Below are positions 28,662 through 36,568 of a stretch of 36,568 nt of DNA, piece by piece. The stretch comes from Verrucomicrobium sp. BvORR034. GTDB taxonomy: Bacteria > Verrucomicrobiota > Verrucomicrobiia > Verrucomicrobiales > Verrucomicrobiaceae. Below the pieces are notes generated by a model that worked only from the letters and a program-made list of their open reading frames with translations, did no database searches and had not been told where the DNA came from. A program made the position numbers and the translations under genes. Where the stretch lies: positions 1 to 36,568 of the forward strand of contig NZ_BATQ01000129.1 in assembly GCF_000739635.1 (NCBI RefSeq), written 5' to 3'. Positions within the stretch are counted from its first letter, which is position 1; each line of letters begins with the position of its first letter.

Positions 28662-29032
28662 AAGCGCAAGTGATTCACTCTCTGGATCTTGCCCGCGCCT
28701 CCCTCGGGGGCGAGATCGCTCAAGTGCGGGAACAGTGGCACCCCAGACACCTGATTCAGCAGAGCGTCGAGAAGCATCGGCTGGCCGTAATAATCAGTGC
28801 CGCCGTTGCAGGATTTATTGCCACTCGAATGATTTTTGGCTCCCGGCAGAATAGTCGTGACACTTCTGCAAAACCCGCTAGAAAACGCACGCTCGCCAGC
28901 TTTCTATTGTCAAATATTTGGAATTTGGCGCGCGAACCGTTGTTCGGCCTCGCCGCCCAACATTTGATGCCGGTAGCTCTCCAATATTTGTCCCGATTCC
29001 AGTCACCCCCGAAGCAAGAAAATTTCGAATGA
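28631..29032 (+). CDS. YqjK-like small membrane protein
   Basis: 133 residues. It starts within the 3' end of the yqjE-like gene (31-bp overlap). One clear membrane helix (LAVIISAAVAGFIATRMIFG) follows an amphipathic N-terminal helix (AQVIHSLDLARASLGGEIAQ), and the C-terminal half is basic and carries a hydrophobic stretch (FLLSNIWNLAREPLFGLAAQ). The similarity to YqjK is only in size and position; this is inference from gene order. Its TGA stop overlaps the ATG of pilT1 (ATGA at 29029), so translation is likely coupled. Confidence 0.65.
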   Translation: MAGPTDRKALKAQVIHSLDLARASLGGEIAQVREQWHPRHLIQQSVEKHRLAVIISAAVAGFIATRMIFGSRQNSRDTSAKPARKRTLASFLLSNIWNLAREPLFGLAAQHLMPVALQYLSRFQSPPKQENFE

Positions 29033-30162
29033 GTCAAGACCAAGAAGAAGCCGTTGCCGTCGCCGTCGCCGTGGAAGAAGAAGCTCCCAAGGTGGCCACG
29101 CTTTCGTCCGTGGACGAGTACCTGCAGCTTGCCCAGCAGTACGACTGTTCCGATCTTCACCTCGCCACGGGCTCCCCGCCGATGTGGCGCCGATATGGCA
29201 CCCTTCAGCCCATCTGGAACAACGCCTCCCTCATCACAGCCGAGGAGGCCCAACGCCTGGCTTACTCCTTCCTCACCGACGGTCACATCAAGACCCTGGA
29301 GAAGCGCGGAGACGTGGATTTCGCCTACTCTCCAAACTACGGCCGGTTCCGCTGCTCTGTAGTGCAGCAGCGCCTGGGCATTGACATGGTTTTCCGCGTC
29401 ATCAGCACGAGCATCCGTTCCATTGAGGATCTCGCCCTCCCGGAAACCTGTCGCACGTTGACCCGCTATCACAACGGCCTGGTGTTGGTGACCGGGGCCA
29501 CCGGCTCCGGCAAGTCCACCACCCTTGCCGCCCTCGTGGATGAGGTGAACAAGGAACGTGAGGACCACATCATCACCCTGGAAGACCCGATCGAATTCGT
29601 GTTTGCAGCCAAGGGCTGCCACGTCAACCAACGTGAAGTAGGGTCCCATACGCAAAGTTTCGCCGCCGCCCTTCGTGGTGCCCTCCGTGAAGACCCGGAT
29701 GTCATCATGGTGGGTGAAATGCGTGACCTTGAGACCATTTCACTGGCCATCACGGCTGCAGAAACGGGTCACTTGGTGCTCGGAACCCTGCACACCGGCA
29801 ACGCACCTCGTACCCTGGACCGTGTGCTGGACGTGTTCCCCTCCGACCAGCGCGACCAGATCCGCATCATGGTGAGCGAGTCCCTGCGTGGCATCATTTC
29901 GCAGCAGCTGATCCCCCGGCAGGACGGCCAGGGCCGCATCATGGCCCTGGAAATCCTGGTGAACACCCCTGCCGTGGCGAACTGCATTCGTGAAGGCAAG
30001 ACCTTCATGCTGCCCGGCATCATGCAGACCGGTAAATCCGTCGGCATGGTCACCATGGATGACTCACTGAAGACGCTGTACTCCCAGGGCTACATCTCCC
30101 GTGACGAGTGCTTCGGCCGCGCCGATGACAAGATGAGCATGAAGAAGTTCCTCGAAAGCTGA
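29029..30162 (+). CDS. pilT: PilT-family twitching-motility ATPase (first copy)
   Basis: 377 residues. An unusual Glu/Val-rich N-terminal extension (EAVAVAVAVEEEAP, encoded by GCCGTN hexamer repeats) precedes the PilT N-domain (DEYLQLAQQYDCSDLHLATG). Walker A is VTGATGSGKSTT, the Asp box is TLEDPIEF, Walker B is MVGEMRD, and the His box is GTLHTGNA. The C-terminal motif corresponding to AIRNLIRE reads VANCIREGK. PilT hexamers depolymerise type IV pili for retraction. Its ATG overlaps the stop of the yqjK-like gene by ATGA, an unusual coupling of pili retraction to a stress-type membrane set. A second PilT gene follows 72 bp later. Confidence 0.94.
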   Translation: MSQDQEEAVAVAVAVEEEAPKVATLSSVDEYLQLAQQYDCSDLHLATGSPPMWRRYGTLQPIWNNASLITAEEAQRLAYSFLTDGHIKTLEKRGDVDFAYSPNYGRFRCSVVQQRLGIDMVFRVISTSIRSIEDLALPETCRTLTRYHNGLVLVTGATGSGKSTTLAALVDEVNKEREDHIITLEDPIEFVFAAKGCHVNQREVGSHTQSFAAALRGALREDPDVIMVGEMRDLETISLAITAAETGHLVLGTLHTGNAPRTLDRVLDVFPSDQRDQIRIMVSESLRGIISQQLIPRQDGQGRIMALEILVNTPAVANCIREGKTFMLPGIMQTGKSVGMVTMDDSLKTLYSQGYISRDECFGRADDKMSMKKFLES

Positions 30163-30234
30163 GTGAACGTGACCGGGGCGCACCACCGCCTGCTCCCACC
30201 ACCCTCCTAACGATTCCTTTTTTCTTTTTCCACC

Positions 30235-31338
30235 ATGCCCATCATTGACGACTACTTCCGCCGCCTCATCGAGCTGGGCGGTTCGGATCTTCACCTCACC
30301 CAGGGCCAGCCGGCCAAGGTTCGCGTGCACGGCAGCATCAAGCCGATCGCCGACGAGATTCTCACGGAAGCATACATGGAAACCATGATGCGTGAGATCT
30401 GCGAGCCTCGCGCCTGGGAACGCTACCGGGAACGGGGCGACCTTGACTTCGCCTATGAAATGGACGCGGACTCCCGCTTCCGTTGCAACTACCTCCGCCA
30501 GATCAGCGGCTACGGTGCCGTCTTCCGTATCATTCCTACCAAGATCGCCTCGCTGGAGCAGCTTGGCATTCCTCCGGTGGTGAAGGAGTTTGGCCACATG
30601 CGCAGCGGTCTGGTGCTGGTCACCGGCCCCACGGGTTCCGGCAAGTCCACCACGCTGGCCGCGCTGATCGACTACATCAATTCCAACTTCAACCGGCACA
30701 TCATCACGGTTGAGGAGCCGATCGAATTCGTGCACCGGAACAAGAAGAGCATCATCACCCAGCGTGAAGTGCCCATCCAGACTCCGACCTTCTCCGACGG
30801 TCTCCGTGCCGCCCTCCGTGAAGACGCCGACATCGTGCTGGTGGGGGAAATGCGAGACTATGAAACCATCTCCCTCGCTCTGACGGCCGCAGAAACGGGT
30901 CTGCTCGTCTTCGGCACCCTGCACACCAACAACGCTCGCAAGACCTGCGACCGTATTGTGGACGTGTTCCCCGCTGACCAGCAGAGCCAGGTGCGCACCA
31001 TGCTTGCCGCCTCCCTCCGCGGAGTGGTGGCCCAGCTGCTGGTGAAAAAGGCCGACGGCAAAGGTCGTGCCGCCGTGAATGAGATCATGGTCTCCACGCC
31101 AGCCGTGGGTGCCATCATCCGTGAAGGCGCCACCCAAAAGCTCTATGACGTCATCATCGGCGGCAAGGCTCAGGGCATGCAGTTCATGGACGAAGCCATC
31201 TGGGAAAAGCTCCGCGACGGCTACATCAGCCCCATGGAGGCTTATATGAAGGCCATCGACAAGAACCGCTTCAAAGCCTTCCTGCCGCCAGACGAAGCTG
31301 CCGTGGCGGTGGCCTCAGGCGCTGAGGCAAACAAGTAA
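30235..31338 (+). CDS. pilT: PilT-family twitching-motility ATPase (second copy)
   Basis: 367 residues, of usual size. The N-domain (FRRLIELGGSDLHLTQGQPA) is followed by Walker A VTGPTGSGKSTT, an Asp box that reads TVEEPIEF (Glu in place of the usual Asp), Walker B LVGEMRDYETISLALTAAET and a His box GTLHTNNA. The C-terminus VGAIIREGATQKLYDVIIGG matches the AIRNLIRE/EGK region. It shares the strand with the first PilT and is followed by a perfect terminator, so both are probably one transcript. Dual PilT/PilU-type ATPases are known; which copy is PilT and which PilU cannot be told. ATG follows a pyrimidine-rich leader (CTTTTTTCTTTTTCCACC). Confidence 0.95.
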   Translation: MPIIDDYFRRLIELGGSDLHLTQGQPAKVRVHGSIKPIADEILTEAYMETMMREICEPRAWERYRERGDLDFAYEMDADSRFRCNYLRQISGYGAVFRIIPTKIASLEQLGIPPVVKEFGHMRSGLVLVTGPTGSGKSTTLAALIDYINSNFNRHIITVEEPIEFVHRNKKSIITQREVPIQTPTFSDGLRAALREDADIVLVGEMRDYETISLALTAAETGLLVFGTLHTNNARKTCDRIVDVFPADQQSQVRTMLAASLRGVVAQLLVKKADGKGRAAVNEIMVSTPAVGAIIREGATQKLYDVIIGGKAQGMQFMDEAIWEKLRDGYISPMEAYMKAIDKNRFKAFLPPDEAAVAVASGAEANK

Positions 31339-32715: not shown

Positions 32716-33240
32716 CTACAGCCTTGCGCAAGCAGTTTTCCCTTCCCACCATGTTTTCACGCCCCATCGTTTGACATCCAGTTCGTCAAAAAAATCTAGG
32801 ACGATTCTGTAGATTTGACCTGATCGGAAGGTCATTTCTACATATCCCATGGCACCGAACCGGATGTAACCCACCTTTACGAGGTCCGATACCGGCTCAT
32901 CACTCGAACGACCTTCATGGCGAATTTTTATCCTCGCCGCCTGAGGATCAAGTTCAGCCCAACTGGCGAACTTGCGCATAAACCTGATGTGGCAGAAAGC
33001 TATGCCCAAAAAAGCCGCCATGAAAAAGCATCCAGTGATGAGAACAATCAGCCATGGCTCCCCTCTTCCAATCCTTTCTGCAATGCCCCCAATCACTGTA
33101 GCACTCCCCCCGACGGCCACGAAGAAAGCAAAAAGCTTTTGGCCAACATACAGAAGCCAGTAGCGAAAACTGCTCGACAGAGGAACCACCCGGTGATCTG
33201 CCTGTAAAACACCTGATCGCAAGCTACAAGCCAGGCTCAT
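32716..33240 (-). CDS. Small membrane protein overlapping the ECF41 sigma gene
   Basis: About 174 residues. ATG 33240 lies inside the last codons of the sigma gene, a 17-bp overlap, which implies that it is translated from the same message; a GTG further on would avoid the overlap. Two hydrophobic helices (LLYVGQKLFAFFVAVGGSATV and PWLIVLITGCFFMAAFLGIA) precede a soluble C-terminal domain (ARIKIRHEGRSSDEPVSDLV, MGYVEMTFRSGQIYRIVLDF). Not recognised. Because it overlaps a sigma factor known to be controlled by its own C-terminal domain, it may be a modulator of the system; that is inference. Confidence 0.62.
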   Translation of the reverse strand: MSLACSLRSGVLQADHRVVPLSSSFRYWLLYVGQKLFAFFVAVGGSATVIGGIAERIGRGEPWLIVLITGCFFMAAFLGIAFCHIRFMRKFASWAELDPQAARIKIRHEGRSSDEPVSDLVKVGYIRFGAMGYVEMTFRSGQIYRIVLDFFDELDVKRWGVKTWWEGKTACARL

Positions 33241-34120
33241 CAACCTCGGAAAACCATTTGAGCTTGTCTGGATTCCGATGAGCAAAGATTGCCGAGATCT
33301 TGCCTTCATGCACCTCTAGGGCAAGAGCTGTCGCCAGCCGGCCTTCCGAGAATAACAGGACGCCGGGCACGCCATTAAAGGTTGTTTCCCGGACCTCATA
33401 TCCAACATCACCCGCCTCGCTGCCACGCATAACTCCCAAAAAGAAGCGGGCAATCTTGTCGCGGCCGTGCATGACCACGGCCACAGCTTGAGCTTTGCCG
33501 CCTCCATCGGAGTGAAATGCTGCGTCTTCACCCAGAAGATTCATCAGCGGTTCCATCTCACCTGCCCTGCATGCCGTGAGGAAACGCTTCAGCAGTTCCT
33601 CATGCTCCCCATGGGTGGCAGTGAAGCGTGGCTTGTCTGCCCGCACTCTTTCTCTGGCGCGAGACACCAGTTTCCGGCAGTTCACGGTGGGCTTGCCCAA
33701 GATCTCGCTGATCTCATCAAAGGTGTGACCAAACACTTCGTGAAGGAGGAACCCCGCCCGTTCCACCGGTGAAAGTTTCTCCAGTACGAGGAGCAGGGCG
33801 ATGGAAACGCTCTCATCAACCTGGGCCGTCTGGTGAGGCTCGACACTGCCCACTAGGGGTTCAGGCAGCCAGGTGCCAAAGTACTGCTCCCGTTGCACCT
33901 GGGCTGACTTCAGCCTGTCCAGACACAGCCGGCTCACCACGGTGAGCAGCCAACTGCGCGGCACCGCCACCGTTCCCACGTCCACGCTCCTCCAACGCAG
34001 CCACGCCTCCTGCACCATGTCTTCCGCGTCAGTCACGGAGCCCAGCATGCGGTACGCCACCCCGGTAAGAAGGCTGCGATGTGATTCAAAGGCGTCCACA
34101 TGAGGGTCCAGGCTTTTCAT
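33224..34120 (-). CDS. ECF41-group RNA polymerase sigma factor (SigJ-like) with SnoaL-like domain
   Basis: 298 residues. Sigma2 (SHRSLLTGVAYRMLGSVTDA, then DMVQEAWLRW) and sigma4 (LSPVERAGFLLHEVFGHTFD, then IAEILGKP-type EILGKPTVNCRKLVSRARER) are followed by a C-terminal NTF2/SnoaL-like extension. The three hallmark motifs of group ECF41 are all visible: WLPEP (84-88) in the linker, DGGGK (205-209) and NPDKL (283-287) in the extension, which regulates the sigma factor in place of an anti-sigma. The partner gene (carboxymuconolactone decarboxylase-like) lies 32 bp upstream on the same strand, as is typical. ATG 34120 is used. Confidence 0.95.
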   Translation of the reverse strand: MKSLDPHVDAFESHRSLLTGVAYRMLGSVTDAEDMVQEAWLRWRSVDVGTVAVPRSWLLTVVSRLCLDRLKSAQVQREQYFGTWLPEPLVGSVEPHQTAQVDESVSIALLLVLEKLSPVERAGFLLHEVFGHTFDEISEILGKPTVNCRKLVSRARERVRADKPRFTATHGEHEELLKRFLTACRAGEMEPLMNLLGEDAAFHSDGGGKAQAVAVVMHGRDKIARFFLGVMRGSEAGDVGYEVRETTFNGVPGVLLFSEGRLATALALEVHEGKISAIFAHRNPDKLKWFSEVDEPGL

Positions 34121-34152: not shown

Positions 34153-34692
34153 TCAGGCAGCCAGTTCGGGGATCAATGAGCAACTGGAGGCGTGACCAAG
34201 ACCGCGTTTGAGAGTGGGATAGATTTTGGCCGCCACAATGGCAAGCGCCAGTTCTGCGATGACCTCTTTGCCCAACCGCTGTTCCAGGCGAGTCAGGAGA
34301 TCAGGATCCAGCGCCTCATTCGTCGCCACTGCCTGGGCATACTGGTGCACCTCAAGGTGTTCCGCGCTCAGCCCCCTGCCACCGCGCAAGGCTCCCTGAA
34401 TGACCGCCTCAGGCACTCCGGCCTCACGAGCCATTTTCACGCCGAGCAGCGTGCACGGCCCACAGTCTTCAGAACGGGAAGCCGTGAGTTTGGCGATGGT
34501 CAGGAGATCCAGTGGGGCCACCTTGTGGTATTGACTCATGCCCATGGCCCCTTGAAACGCCAAAAAGGCTTCCGGGGAAACGTCCATAAGCTCGTCCAGG
34601 TAGCTGACGTCGTAGTCATACTGCCGCCCAAAGGCGCGGATGGAGTTGCGGGATGCGTTGATACGGTCGGTGGTGTTTTGCGTGTCGTTCAT
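34153..34692 (-). CDS. Carboxymuconolactone decarboxylase / AhpD-like protein, ECF41 partner
   Basis: 179 residues, all alpha. The AhpD-like redox CxxC is Cys77-Cys80 in RSEDCGPCTLLG, with LTIAKLTASRSEDCGPC and EVHQYAQAVATNEAL in the usual positions. Such proteins (carboxymuconolactone decarboxylase, oxidoreductase or epimerase) are the classical targets of ECF41 sigma factors. Its role is probably oxidant or organic hydroperoxide defence; the substrate is not known. ATG 34692 is the first residue of MNDTQNTTDR; the predicted promoter lies only about 12 bp upstream, so the transcript would be nearly leaderless. The upstream extension to 34794 runs through that promoter and is rejected. Confidence 0.9.
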   Translation of the reverse strand: MNDTQNTTDRINASRNSIRAFGRQYDYDVSYLDELMDVSPEAFLAFQGAMGMSQYHKVAPLDLLTIAKLTASRSEDCGPCTLLGVKMAREAGVPEAVIQGALRGGRGLSAEHLEVHQYAQAVATNEALDPDLLTRLEQRLGKEVIAELALAIVAAKIYPTLKRGLGHASSCSLIPELAA

Positions 34693-34703
34693 AACGTCCC
34701 TAT

Positions 34704-34730
34704 GACGAGACCGGGAGGAAAAGTGTGACC
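34704..34730 (-). promoter_or_regulatory. ECF41-type promoter upstream of the carboxymuconolactone-decarboxylase-like gene
   Basis: On the minus strand GGTCACA (34730-34724), a 16-nt spacer and CGTC (34707-34704) match the ECF41 consensus that I recall as TGTCACA-N16-CGTC, with one mismatch. The ATG follows 11 nt after CGTC, so the predicted start of transcription is only a few nucleotides before the start codon. The sigma gene next in line would be auto-regulated through this promoter. Confidence 0.72.
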
Positions 34731-34746
34731 GACTGCCCACACTTTT
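34719..34746. promoter_or_regulatory. Palindrome overlapping the ECF41 -35 element
   Basis: Perfect 9-bp arms AAAAGTGTG (34719-34727) and CACACTTTT (34738-34746) with a 10-nt spacer. The left arm and spacer overlap the -35 hexamer, so a protein bound here could block or aid sigma access. There is no gene whose 3' end could use it as a terminator; the next plus-strand gene starts at 34824. Confidence 0.5.
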
Positions 34747-34823
34747 CTTTTGGAAAGCTTCTTTCGCCCGCGCTTCAAGCGCTTTCCCCAACATAAAGAA
34801 TTCTGTACACTTCGAATTTCTCC

Positions 34824-35444
34824 ATGAACAAGCCTGGTTTCCGCCGCTGGCTCCGCAGAAGCATCATTGCCATCGGCTGCATCTTGGGCTTCATCCTGAC
34901 AGCCGGACTGTACTTCGTGCGCTGGACCCCATACGTCTTTCGTCCGGAGTTGTCGTACAAGTCCGAGCAGTTGCTTCCGTTTTACAAAGCAACCGAGTGG
35001 ACGCTCTTCTCCCTGTCTCCCAAACTGGTGTTTGCTGACTCGCCCTCTGATCCCGTCGTGAGCGCCCCAAATGTTCCCGAGCTGTTTTACGACCATCCCA
35101 TTCTCGGAAAAGTGGCAACTCCCATCACATCCGACATCAAGGCCATCGTCGCGGACCTGGACAAATCCGGCAAACATTGGTCCGGTGCCGTCTATGCCTG
35201 TTTCAGCCCCCGACACGGAATACGCGCGGTGGAGAATGGCAAGGTGCATGACCTGCTCATCTGCTACGAATGCGCCTCGGCTGAGATCTACGAGAACTCC
35301 GTCCAAGTCGGAACCATCTATCTCTCGTCTGACCACTACGATCGAAATCAAAACGAACGCTTCAATGCCATCCTCATTCGGGCAGGAATTCCGACCGCCC
35401 TGCCCCCACAGGAGAAGTCTTTGAATTCCGAATCGGATCAGTGA
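34824..35444 (+). CDS. Membrane-anchored protein of unknown function
   Basis: 206 residues. An N-terminal anchor (SIIAIGCILGFILTAGLYFV) follows a basic start (MNKPGFRRWLRR), so the rest is probably periplasmic. The soluble part has the pattern GAVYACFSPRHGIRA and DLLICYECASAEIYENS, which I have seen in small PVC-group proteins of unknown function; I cannot name the family. It is divergent from the ECF41 operon across the palindrome, so it could share that regulation. The last base pair overlaps the next possible start (GTG 35441). Confidence 0.68.
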   Translation: MNKPGFRRWLRRSIIAIGCILGFILTAGLYFVRWTPYVFRPELSYKSEQLLPFYKATEWTLFSLSPKLVFADSPSDPVVSAPNVPELFYDHPILGKVATPITSDIKAIVADLDKSGKHWSGAVYACFSPRHGIRAVENGKVHDLLICYECASAEIYENSVQVGTIYLSSDHYDRNQNERFNAILIRAGIPTALPPQEKSLNSESDQ

Positions 35445-35467: not shown

Positions 35468-35779
35468 ATGCTTCGCACTCGTCACCTCTCACTTCCGCTC
35501 TGCGCATTTCTCGCGGCTGCGGCCATGATATCTTGCAGCACGCGACACCAACTGCACTCCCCTGTCCAACTGAAGACGCTGCCCATGAGCCGTGGATTCA
35601 ACCATGGAAGCTTGGTCGCACCGACGCACCGACGCACCGACGCACCGACTACTGCGGCACCGGATCCACCGCCGCCTCCTCCTTGCTCCAGGGTCCTTCC
35701 ATTTCCACGAACCAGTGCTTCTTGCCTGCCTCTTTGCCGATCTCGGTCTTGTAGCACCGCCGTTCGATGGCCTGGATGA
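35468..35779 (+). CDS. Possible short lipoprotein gene running into a tandem repeat
   Basis: ATG 35468 opens MLRTRHLSLPLCAFLAAAAM followed by ISC, a fair lipobox (AMISC), so a lipid-anchored protein is plausible. After about 50 residues the frame enters four copies of an 8-bp repeat and then low-complexity Pro-rich sequence, overlapping the convergent TPR-like gene by 131 bp. An 8-bp unit changes frame with each copy, so the true C-terminus may be lost or variable. Only the first 50 residues look like real protein; confidence is low. Confidence 0.35.
   Translation: MLRTRHLSLPLCAFLAAAAMISCSTRHQLHSPVQLKTLPMSRGFNHGSLVAPTHRRTDAPTTAAPDPPPPPPCSRVLPFPRTSASCLPLCRSRSCSTAVRWPG
35618..35649. repeat. 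8-bp tandem repeat, four copies
   Basis: Four perfect copies of GCACCGAC (35618-35649). The last base is also the last base of the stop codon of the convergent TPR-like gene. A unit of 8 is not a multiple of 3, so copy-number change would shift the frame of the putative lipoprotein reading through it. Confidence 0.9.
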
Positions 35780-36568
35780 AACGATCCGCCTCCTTGGGGT
35801 AGCGCCCTTTGAGCCACCCTCCCGCCGTGTTCAGCACATCGGCGGTAATTTCTGACTGGTCGGGCAGCAAGCCTGCCGCCTTCCAGGCCAGACCTGCGGC
35901 CACGTGGCGGTAGTGATAACGCTTTTCCGGATTGAGTTTGGTGCTCGCGAGGCGCTTCTTCTCATCCGGGCTCACCGGCACAACCAGACTCGCAGGCCCG
36001 GGCTTGAAGTCTTGCTCTTCTTCGTCATCAGAATAACCGATCTTCTGCTTCTGTCCAGTCAGGCGTTCCATGGCCGTGTTGGGTGAGATGAAGTCCCCAT
36101 TCGTAGAGCTGGAATCAGGGCCGCCCTCTGTCCCCATCAGTTCCATGCCGTGATAGCGGGCCACCCAGGCCGCCGTGAACAAAGCGCGGGCGCTCTCCTG
36201 CTTGGCAGCCTTCTCATTGGTCGCCACCTTTAGTGCCGCCACGTAGCGGTCATGGTTGGGCCATTGATTCTCTGGAAGGTAGGGGCGGGCTTCGGCATAG
36301 CGATCTTCCCGCATCAGACGCCGCCCCAGCAGCGAGCGGATCCGGGTGGCTTCGTCATGCTGCTTTGCTTCCCCTTCGCTGTAGTTGTCCGGGTCTTTCG
36401 GCTTGGGTATCTCAGGGAAGTGTTCGGCGACGTAGCCGAGCAGTTCCTTGGTCGTCAGCACTCGCTCCGCCACATAGGCTGCGTCGTCCCACATGTTCAC
36501 CGCCAGGAAGGAATCGAGCGCGGCCAGATAGTCGCCTCGCGTGAGCTGGATCATTCCCAGATCGCAAC
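35649..36568 (-). CDS. TPR-like repeat protein, C-terminal part (runs off right edge)
   Basis: The frame is open to the right edge, without a start in the upstream codons shown (CDLG before MIQL), so the ATG at 36554 is probably internal and the gene is partial at its 5' end. About 305 residues are visible. The first part (MIQLTRGDYLAALDSFLAVN, then DDAAYVAERVLTTKELLGYV) has the helix-pair pattern of tetratricopeptide repeats, then ARPYLPENQWPNHDRYVAAL, and a C-terminal domain (HYRHVAAGLAWKAAGLLPDQ, GRYPKEADRFIQAIERRCYK). It is known to me only as a PVC-type hypothetical protein; an envelope-associated scaffolding role is possible. The stop abuts the 8-bp repeat. Confidence 0.78.
   Translation of the reverse strand, partial: CDLGMIQLTRGDYLAALDSFLAVNMWDDAAYVAERVLTTKELLGYVAEHFPEIPKPKDPDNYSEGEAKQHDEATRIRSLLGRRLMREDRYAEARPYLPENQWPNHDRYVAALKVATNEKAAKQESARALFTAAWVARYHGMELMGTEGGPDSSSTNGDFISPNTAMERLTGQKQKIGYSDDEEEQDFKPGPASLVVPVSPDEKKRLASTKLNPEKRYHYRHVAAGLAWKAAGLLPDQSEITADVLNTAGGWLKGRYPKEADRFIQAIERRCYKTEIGKEAGKKHWFVEMEGPWSKEEAAVDPVPQ

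Follow-up and report, generated by a model that had tools for sequence, protein, structure and literature searches.

A near-leaderless start predicted for an ECF41 target gene of Verrucomicrobium sp. BvORR034, and promoter-to-start-codon distances in Verrucomicrobiae

Can an ECF41 promoter lie so close to the start codon of its target gene that the message is left with almost no leader? This question is raised by a locus on contig NZ_BATQ01000129.1 of the soil bacterium Verrucomicrobium sp. BvORR034, of which we analysed positions 1 to 36,568 (36,568 nucleotides, from here on the window). A preliminary description had reported GGTCACA-N16-CGTC as an ECF41 promoter with one mismatch and exact spacing, an ATG 11 nt past CGTC and, downstream, a carboxymuconolactone decarboxylase-like (CMD-like) gene followed by an ECF41 sigma gene carrying WLPEP, DGGGK and NPDKL. 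Inspection of the sequence confirmed each of these points. On the minus strand GGTCACA differs from the consensus TGTCACA only at the first base, the spacer is N16, and CGTC, which ends at 34704, is followed by ATAGGGACGTT (11 nt) and then by the ATG at 34692-34690. The features of the locus are the following:

34724..34730, minus strand: -35 element GGTCACA of the ECF41 type, with G instead of T at the first position; read directly, GTCACA being invariant in five aligned orthologous pairs.
34702..34709, minus strand: extended -10 element CTCGTCAT, with the core CGTC at 34707-34704, 16 nt from the -35 element; CTCGTCAT is invariant in five aligned orthologs.
34693..34695, minus strand: predicted transcription start G 34695 and 3-nt leader GUU, placed by taking the ninth nucleotide after CGTC.
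34153..34692, minus strand: CMD-like gene of 179 aa with CGPC as CxxC motif, the presumed target of the promoter; from the translation and a sub-threshold PF02627 match.
33224..34120, minus strand: ECF41 sigma factor of 299 aa, SigJ/SigX4 type, with a C-terminal SnoaL-like extension; from family models.

We consider it quite probable that the locus is an ordinary autoregulated two-gene ECF41 operon in a near-leaderless variant typical of its class, with the transcription start at G34695. Four observations carry this reading, namely the motif, its conservation, the distribution of promoter-to-start-codon distances and the lack of a Shine-Dalgarno (SD) signal.

Regarding the sigma factor, it matched the SigJ model PRK09636 with 347 bits (cut-off 271) and the SigX4 model with 328.5 bits (cut-off 323.25), PRK09636 and TIGR02957 both being above cut-off, as were the domains PF04542 and PF08281. 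The SigJ-model match extends to residue 289-290 of 299 and thus covers the C-terminal extension of about 100 aa that is expected of an ECF41 factor; SnoaL_2 scored 23.1 bits, under its cut-off of 27. The linker between sigma2 and sigma4 reads GTWLPEPLV, and WLPEP in this linker is a defining ECF41 feature (PMC3426412; here and below, citations refer to the portions of the papers available to us). DGGGK and NPDKL are also present, neither being named in the available text of that paper. The nearest solved protein is SigJ 5xe7 (E 1.9e-56), the sigma of Verrucomicrobium sp. BvORR106 is 88% identical, and the genome holds no second match to the window sigma at E<=1e-8. The sigma gene begins 32 nt past the stop of the CMD-like gene on the same strand. 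The CMD-like protein matched PF02627 with 17.0 bits, under the cut-off of 23. The locus therefore has the sigma2 and sigma4 of the SigJ/SigX4 type, the C-terminal extension, WLPEP, an adjacent COE gene and the promoter, all of which belong to ECF41, and family models, orthologous loci and earlier studies of ECF41 all back the ECF41 identity, the COE-sigma order and the promoter.

The bare pattern proves nothing, because a scan of the window with up to two mismatches gave 10 matches where 10.4 were expected, and conservation was therefore used as the test. The 10-base core (GTCACA and CGTC, N15-17) occurs once in the window, with an expectation of 0.085 per spacer length, or about 0.26 over the three spacers; for the 100 bp before one gene the expectation over three spacers is 0.00035. 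A genome scan with TGTCACA-N15-18-CGTC gave 6 sites, the window site not among them, against 8 for a reversed control. With the extended -10 element in the pattern, the window site was the sole match in the genome (control 3), and the related genomes G065, G066 and G067 had 3 sites (the ortholog included), 1 and 0 (controls 3, 1 and 5). The motif search proposed in the preliminary description thus returned the window site as the only extended match, at counts that are at chance level and that only weakly suggest that the genome may hold a single ECF41 target.

Conservation gave a clearer answer. In the family, 9 of 68 genomes gave matches to the sigma (11 in all), and five of these loci also carry a relative of the window CMD gene. 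All five have GTCACA and CTCGTCAT upstream, so that the comparison in relatives, in which an absent motif would have spoken against the promoter, found it before every intact CMD-ECF41 pair detected in the family. Four of the five read GGTCACA with N16, and the fifth (G061) reads AGTCACA with N17. In the aligned upstream regions the motif is the main invariant block, with poorly conserved flanks. Among 384 genomes of the class, the CMD search gave matches in 10, of which 7 have the strict motif, one (G403) has it with one mismatch and 2 lack it; these two are a broken pair in G012 and, in G296, a CMD-like gene without a nearby sigma gene (L066). The broken pair (L065) is a decayed same-family CMD-ECF41 pair whose CMD frame has one TGA and one TAG, whose sigma is partly matched and before which there is no promoter motif. 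On these comparisons, and not on the pattern alone, we regard the promoter as real.

The possibility that a real ECF41 promoter is only auxiliary here, and that the main translated message starts at a more distant upstream promoter and has an ordinary leader, is unlikely. About 93 nt separate the motif from the divergent gene at 34824, which is enough for a second promoter, and the open reading frame remains open above the motif to 34794. However, a consensus scan of 34650-35000 on both strands found no sigma-70-like site, and the orthologs keep the motif but share little of the sequence above it.

We give hardly any credence to the idea that the CMD protein starts upstream, at the ATG 34794 or the GTG 34740, the motif then being chance coding sequence. 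In the window no stop interrupts the frame over the 171 nt above the ATG, a stretch that includes the ATG 34794, but in the ortholog of the same-genus genome G065 a stop closes it after 57 nt, with no start codon in between. Furthermore, two orthologs have 11 nt between CGTC and ATG and a third has 12, and therefore the frame across the motif shifts. The differences between the window gene and the G065 ortholog by codon position are 0, 1 and 4 in codons 1-10 and 4, 3 and 24 in the first sixty codons, but 11, 17 and 12 in the thirty triplets above the ATG; that is, third-position bias begins at codon 1 and there is none above it. The start codons of the class members with short distances (24 cases, see below) were examined as well. 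Going upstream in frame, 12 of the 24 reach a stop without passing any start codon beyond the first 6 nt, in 20 of the 24 codons 2-12 contain no ATG, GTG or TTG, and the azoreductase-like targets, read by eye, share an N-terminal stretch from residue 2-3 onward.

The transcription start was predicted with a rule taken from three mapped ECF41 promoters, all of other phyla. The B. licheniformis and R. sphaeroides targets have a G start followed by a 22- and a 23-bp leader with a ribosome-binding site, and Table 5 of the same paper lists 31 and 32 for these two genes (PMC3426412). We read 31 and 32, against the table heading (leader lengths), as distances from the -10 element to the ATG and assumed the pairings 22 with 31 and 23 with 32, which gives a difference of 9 in both cases. 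Relatives of R. sphaeroides in our survey have their ATG 31-32 nt past CGTC. The third promoter, that of S. meliloti, is printed as ending ...CGTCATGGTGTCG (PMC6180224, Table 1); its start was taken as the last printed base by analogy with the entries mapped by two methods, which end in a lower-case start mark, the bold start mark being absent from the text used. In the pSymB sequence SMb20029 has G at nucleotide 9 past CGTC and its ATG 32 nt past CGTC, with aaaaggag before it. Among 75 long-leader promoters of other phyla base 9 is G in 63%, and its information content of 0.51 bits is second only to that of base 2 (0.52) among the first 14 bases. Since the mapped ECF41 starts are read as lying 9 nt past the -10 element, the start in the window would be G34695 and the leader GUU. 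The preliminary description had predicted a leader of about 5 nt; a very short leader still stands, but calibration on the mapped starts makes its length probably 3 nt (range 2-5) rather than 5. A leader of this predicted length would fall outside the strict definition of a leaderless message, in which the start is the first base of the AUG (PMC3616915). We also observed a GGTG-like element past the -10 element, at +6 to +9 in other phyla and at +7 to +10 in Verrucomicrobiae, where T9 and G10 are each found in 7 of 8 long-leader promoters; the start in Verrucomicrobiae may be shifted by 1 nt relative to other phyla. The window promoter lacks GGTG.

With 11 nt between CGTC and ATG, there is too little space for the 22/23-bp leader and ribosome-binding site of the characterised ECF41 targets. 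An AGGGA does occur in ATAGGGACGTT, 4 nt before the start codon, AAGGG is found in the ortholog of the same genus, and a 16S 3'-end-type pattern with CCTCC is present in the genome. A start only 1-3 nt past CGTC would turn AGGGA into a very close SD site of an ordinary leadered message. This is very unlikely: the mapped ECF41 starts, as we read them, lie about 9 nt past CGTC; G019 (ATACCCAGTGCC) and many other short-spaced members lack the purine run; and the genomes sampled from the class show SD cores at no more than background level. With the start at G34695, itself a prediction, AGGGA would lie upstream of the message and a 3-nt leader would have no room for an SD site, and the first gene would therefore be translated as a leaderless or near-leaderless message.

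The operon that we favour would then work as follows. With a permissive fused C-terminal domain, the sigma factor would direct RNA polymerase to GGTCACA-N16-CTCGTC, and transcription would begin about 9 nt past CGTC, at G34695. The mRNA would thus have its 5' end 3 nt (range 2-5) before the AUG, without room for an SD site, and the CMD gene would presumably be translated from the 5' end as a leaderless or near-leaderless message. The CMD and sigma genes would be co-transcribed, the sigma factor presumably autoregulating its own operon in response to a putative trigger. In Verrucomicrobiae, with SD cores at background, the leader of about 23 nt of the characterised ECF41 targets may be dispensable, and in most ECF41 targets examined in the class the start codon would lie within the start region of the promoter.

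In order to place the window distance, we searched ECF41 loci from several phyla for the strict motif NGTCACA-N15-17-CGTC. The loci are a non-random sample, taken among the matches listed and completed with 40 further stretches. Regarding the class, 32 of 384 genomes gave a SigJ-type sigma match in the family-model search, 30 of them over the cut-off. Among the matches listed there are 44 distinct class ECF41 loci, the matches in G325 and G344 being outside this set; the strict motif lies correctly oriented upstream in 32 of them, a version with one mismatch in another 6, and 6 have no motif (a one-mismatch match at L017 was scored as no motif). Among the matches listed, the strict motif gave 139 sites in all, 122 of them with an ORF, against means of 7.3 sites, 3.5 with an ORF and 0.8 with any start at 12 nt or less for 30 shuffled motifs. 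The other 17 of the 139 sites were excluded, as no ORF of 100 aa starts within 120 nt. Each distance runs to the first ATG in the longest frame; for L015, L061, L085 and L094 the start was set by hand, one strict Verrucomicrobiae site on the far strand of L065, with no gene, was dropped, and 12 rows of other phyla with their first ATG at less than 8 or more than 120 nt were left out of the counts. As only ATG starts entered the counts and some Actinobacteria frames have a GTG or TTG at 0-9 nt, short cases are perhaps undercounted there.

The ATG lies 9-13 nt past CGTC in 24 of 32 strict Verrucomicrobiae promoters (24 short, 8 long) and in 10 of the 80 assigned promoters elsewhere. By group, we found 4 short and 38 long promoters in Pseudomonadota (4 left out), 6 and 14 in Actinobacteria (4 left out), 0 and 10 in Acidobacteria (3 left out), 0 and 5 in Myxobacteria (1 left out), 0 and 2 in Cyanobacteria and 0 and 1 in Chloroflexi. 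The commonest range in Pseudomonadota is 28-37 nt (22 of 46). The comparison of short and long promoters in the class and elsewhere gives a Fisher p of 3e-10, a value that overstates the evidence because the rows are related and non-random and hold only 1-2 independent class-versus-others pairs. In a sigma tree built quickly from 102 rows, the label changed between short and long at least 15 times, and the 31 Verrucomicrobiae sigmas fell into two supported groups, with short distances in 15 of 18 and 9 of 13 rows. The class effect is thus descriptive: two old lineages, both mostly short, in which the short distance persists across large sequence divergence.

A short leader is not required. The distances in the five family pairs are 11, 11, 12, 27 and 33 nt, so two of the five orthologs are long, as are 8 of the 32 strict class promoters and 4 of the 6 one-mismatch class loci, which are outside the counts and whose short members are L088 (10) and L200 (9). 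The short Verrucomicrobiae targets, assigned by reading translations, are of CMD types, azoreductase-like and epimerase-like. In 16 of the 24 short Verrucomicrobiae genes, counted by eye, the second codon starts with AA (ATGAA), which is perhaps part of a 5'-end initiation signal. A distance of exactly 8 nt was found in three Mycobacterium and four Pseudomonadota loci; with the start at base 9, their messages would have no leader at all. In three Pseudomonadota loci (L168, L171 and L172) the ORF exactly 8 nt past CGTC resembles the ECF41 gene itself, whose message would in that case be strictly leaderless. At L060 (G288), CTCGTC directly on the -10 element is followed at once by the ATG of a nine-codon frame whose TGA overlaps the gene ATG (ATGA), a possible tiny upstream ORF or chance.

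Does the class use SD sites elsewhere? First ATGs of long open frames were rejected as a start set, as they gave SD in 7% in the Rhodobacter control and are thus poor starts; therefore a codon-usage start caller was used, and SD cores were sought 3-17 nt above the starts. As controls, the caller recovered SD in Pseudomonadota and, in Mycobacterium, TANNNT 5-8 nt before the start (20 against 2.4 expected). Five Verrucomicrobiae genomes from four families gave 284, 89, 91, 55 and 65 starts, of which 9, 11, 11, 5 and 11% have SD cores against 12, 15, 8, 7 and 8% further up, whereas the values were 43, 42 and 55% against 12, 12 and 11% in three Pseudomonadota and 32% against 8% in Mycobacterium. 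A shuffle control gave 18% for the 32% of Mycobacterium, and 9, 11 and 11% for three Verrucomicrobiae genomes with 11, 11 and 11%. The long ECF41 leaders (up to 90 nt) agree: none of the 8 from the class has an SD core, as against 52 of the 65 from elsewhere (four phyla tested). TANNNT was observed 11, 5, 4, 5 and 6 times in the five Verrucomicrobiae genomes, against 7.7, 1.1, 2.9, 3.0 and 0.6 expected (pooled 31 against 15.3, Poisson 3e-4), a genome-wide leaderless signal that is weaker than that of Mycobacterium. The CCTCC-bearing pattern typical of the 16S 3' end is found in 3 of 4 genomes of the genus, the fourth being 76% complete; Akkermansia and another member of the phylum have been described as SD-scarce with a conserved CCUCC (PMC10783764). 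Leaderless starts make up 10% in Akkermansia, of the same class, and 0.4% in E. coli (PMC4782308). The hint of leaderless translation in this lineage, raised in the preliminary description, is therefore strengthened by the 24 of 32 short promoters, the SD background level in five genomes and the Akkermansia figure. These data are consistent with a class that makes little use of SD sites and that tolerates, and mostly has, start codons beside the ECF41 start site.

Compared with known systems, the window promoter resembles those of B. licheniformis ydfG and R. sphaeroides RSP_0606, with a TGTCACA -35, a CGTC/TGTT -10 and a spacer of 16 (+-1) bp, and these systems share the COE target, the commonest linked order COE-ECF, the fused C-terminal domain and the WLPEP linker (PMC3426412). 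It differs in the first base of the -35 element, G in the window and T in theirs, and in the leader, predicted at 3 nt without a site as against 22/23 bp with a ribosome-binding site (PMC3426412). The RpoE9 (ECF41) target SMb20029 of S. meliloti also has CTCGTCAT, N16 and a CxxC CMD gene followed by the sigma gene (PMC6180224), but the 32 nt and aaaaggag before its ATG set it apart. The Mycobacterium ECF41-linked loci L040, L044 and L046 share the short spacing, with the ATG exactly 8 nt past CGTC, although their target protein is unlike that of the window, and Mycobacterium is already known for leaderless messages (PMC3898074). Akkermansia muciniphila, of the same class as the window, has leaderless transcripts by Cappable-seq, 10% of the starts coinciding with start codons, but the available text does not tie these to an alternative sigma factor (PMC4782308).

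The promoter, the operon order and a single-operon regulon are known ECF41 biology (PMC3426412). In the literature searched, with most subscription journals outside it, we found no link between ECF41 and leaderless messages, both terms co-occurring in the S. meliloti start map; searches on leaderless messages in Verrucomicrobia, in Akkermansia and in connection with extracytoplasmic function and start sites, and on Shine-Dalgarno use in Verrucomicrobia, yielded, among the papers listed, general results only. Leaderless genes with sigma-70 boxes have been surveyed, the names searched for the phylum of Verrucomicrobiae being absent from the available text (PMC3160421). To judge from sequence comparison, the most interesting part is that the hint for the lineage appears to extend over the class. 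With somewhat less than even confidence, we propose that ECF41 regulons were rebuilt throughout Verrucomicrobiae, so that the start region overlaps the start codon (leaders of 0-4 nt) before unrelated targets, the sigma factor setting both transcription and translation from a 5'-end AUG in a class that largely gave up SD. As the ECF41 promoter is regular, the distance from the -10 element to the ATG can be read across phyla, a ruler for leader length against initiation mode. If confirmed, Verrucomicrobiae would provide a set of near-leaderless messages that is defined, can be induced and lies outside actinobacteria; translation initiation in this class is little studied in the literature searched.

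Regarding the rest of the window, two consecutive plus-strand genes at 28918-31338 resemble, as read from their translations, PilT-type twitching ATPases, and a short tandem gcaccgac run lies at about 35618-35649, between the hypothetical gene 34824-35444 and the minus-strand gene 35649-36554.
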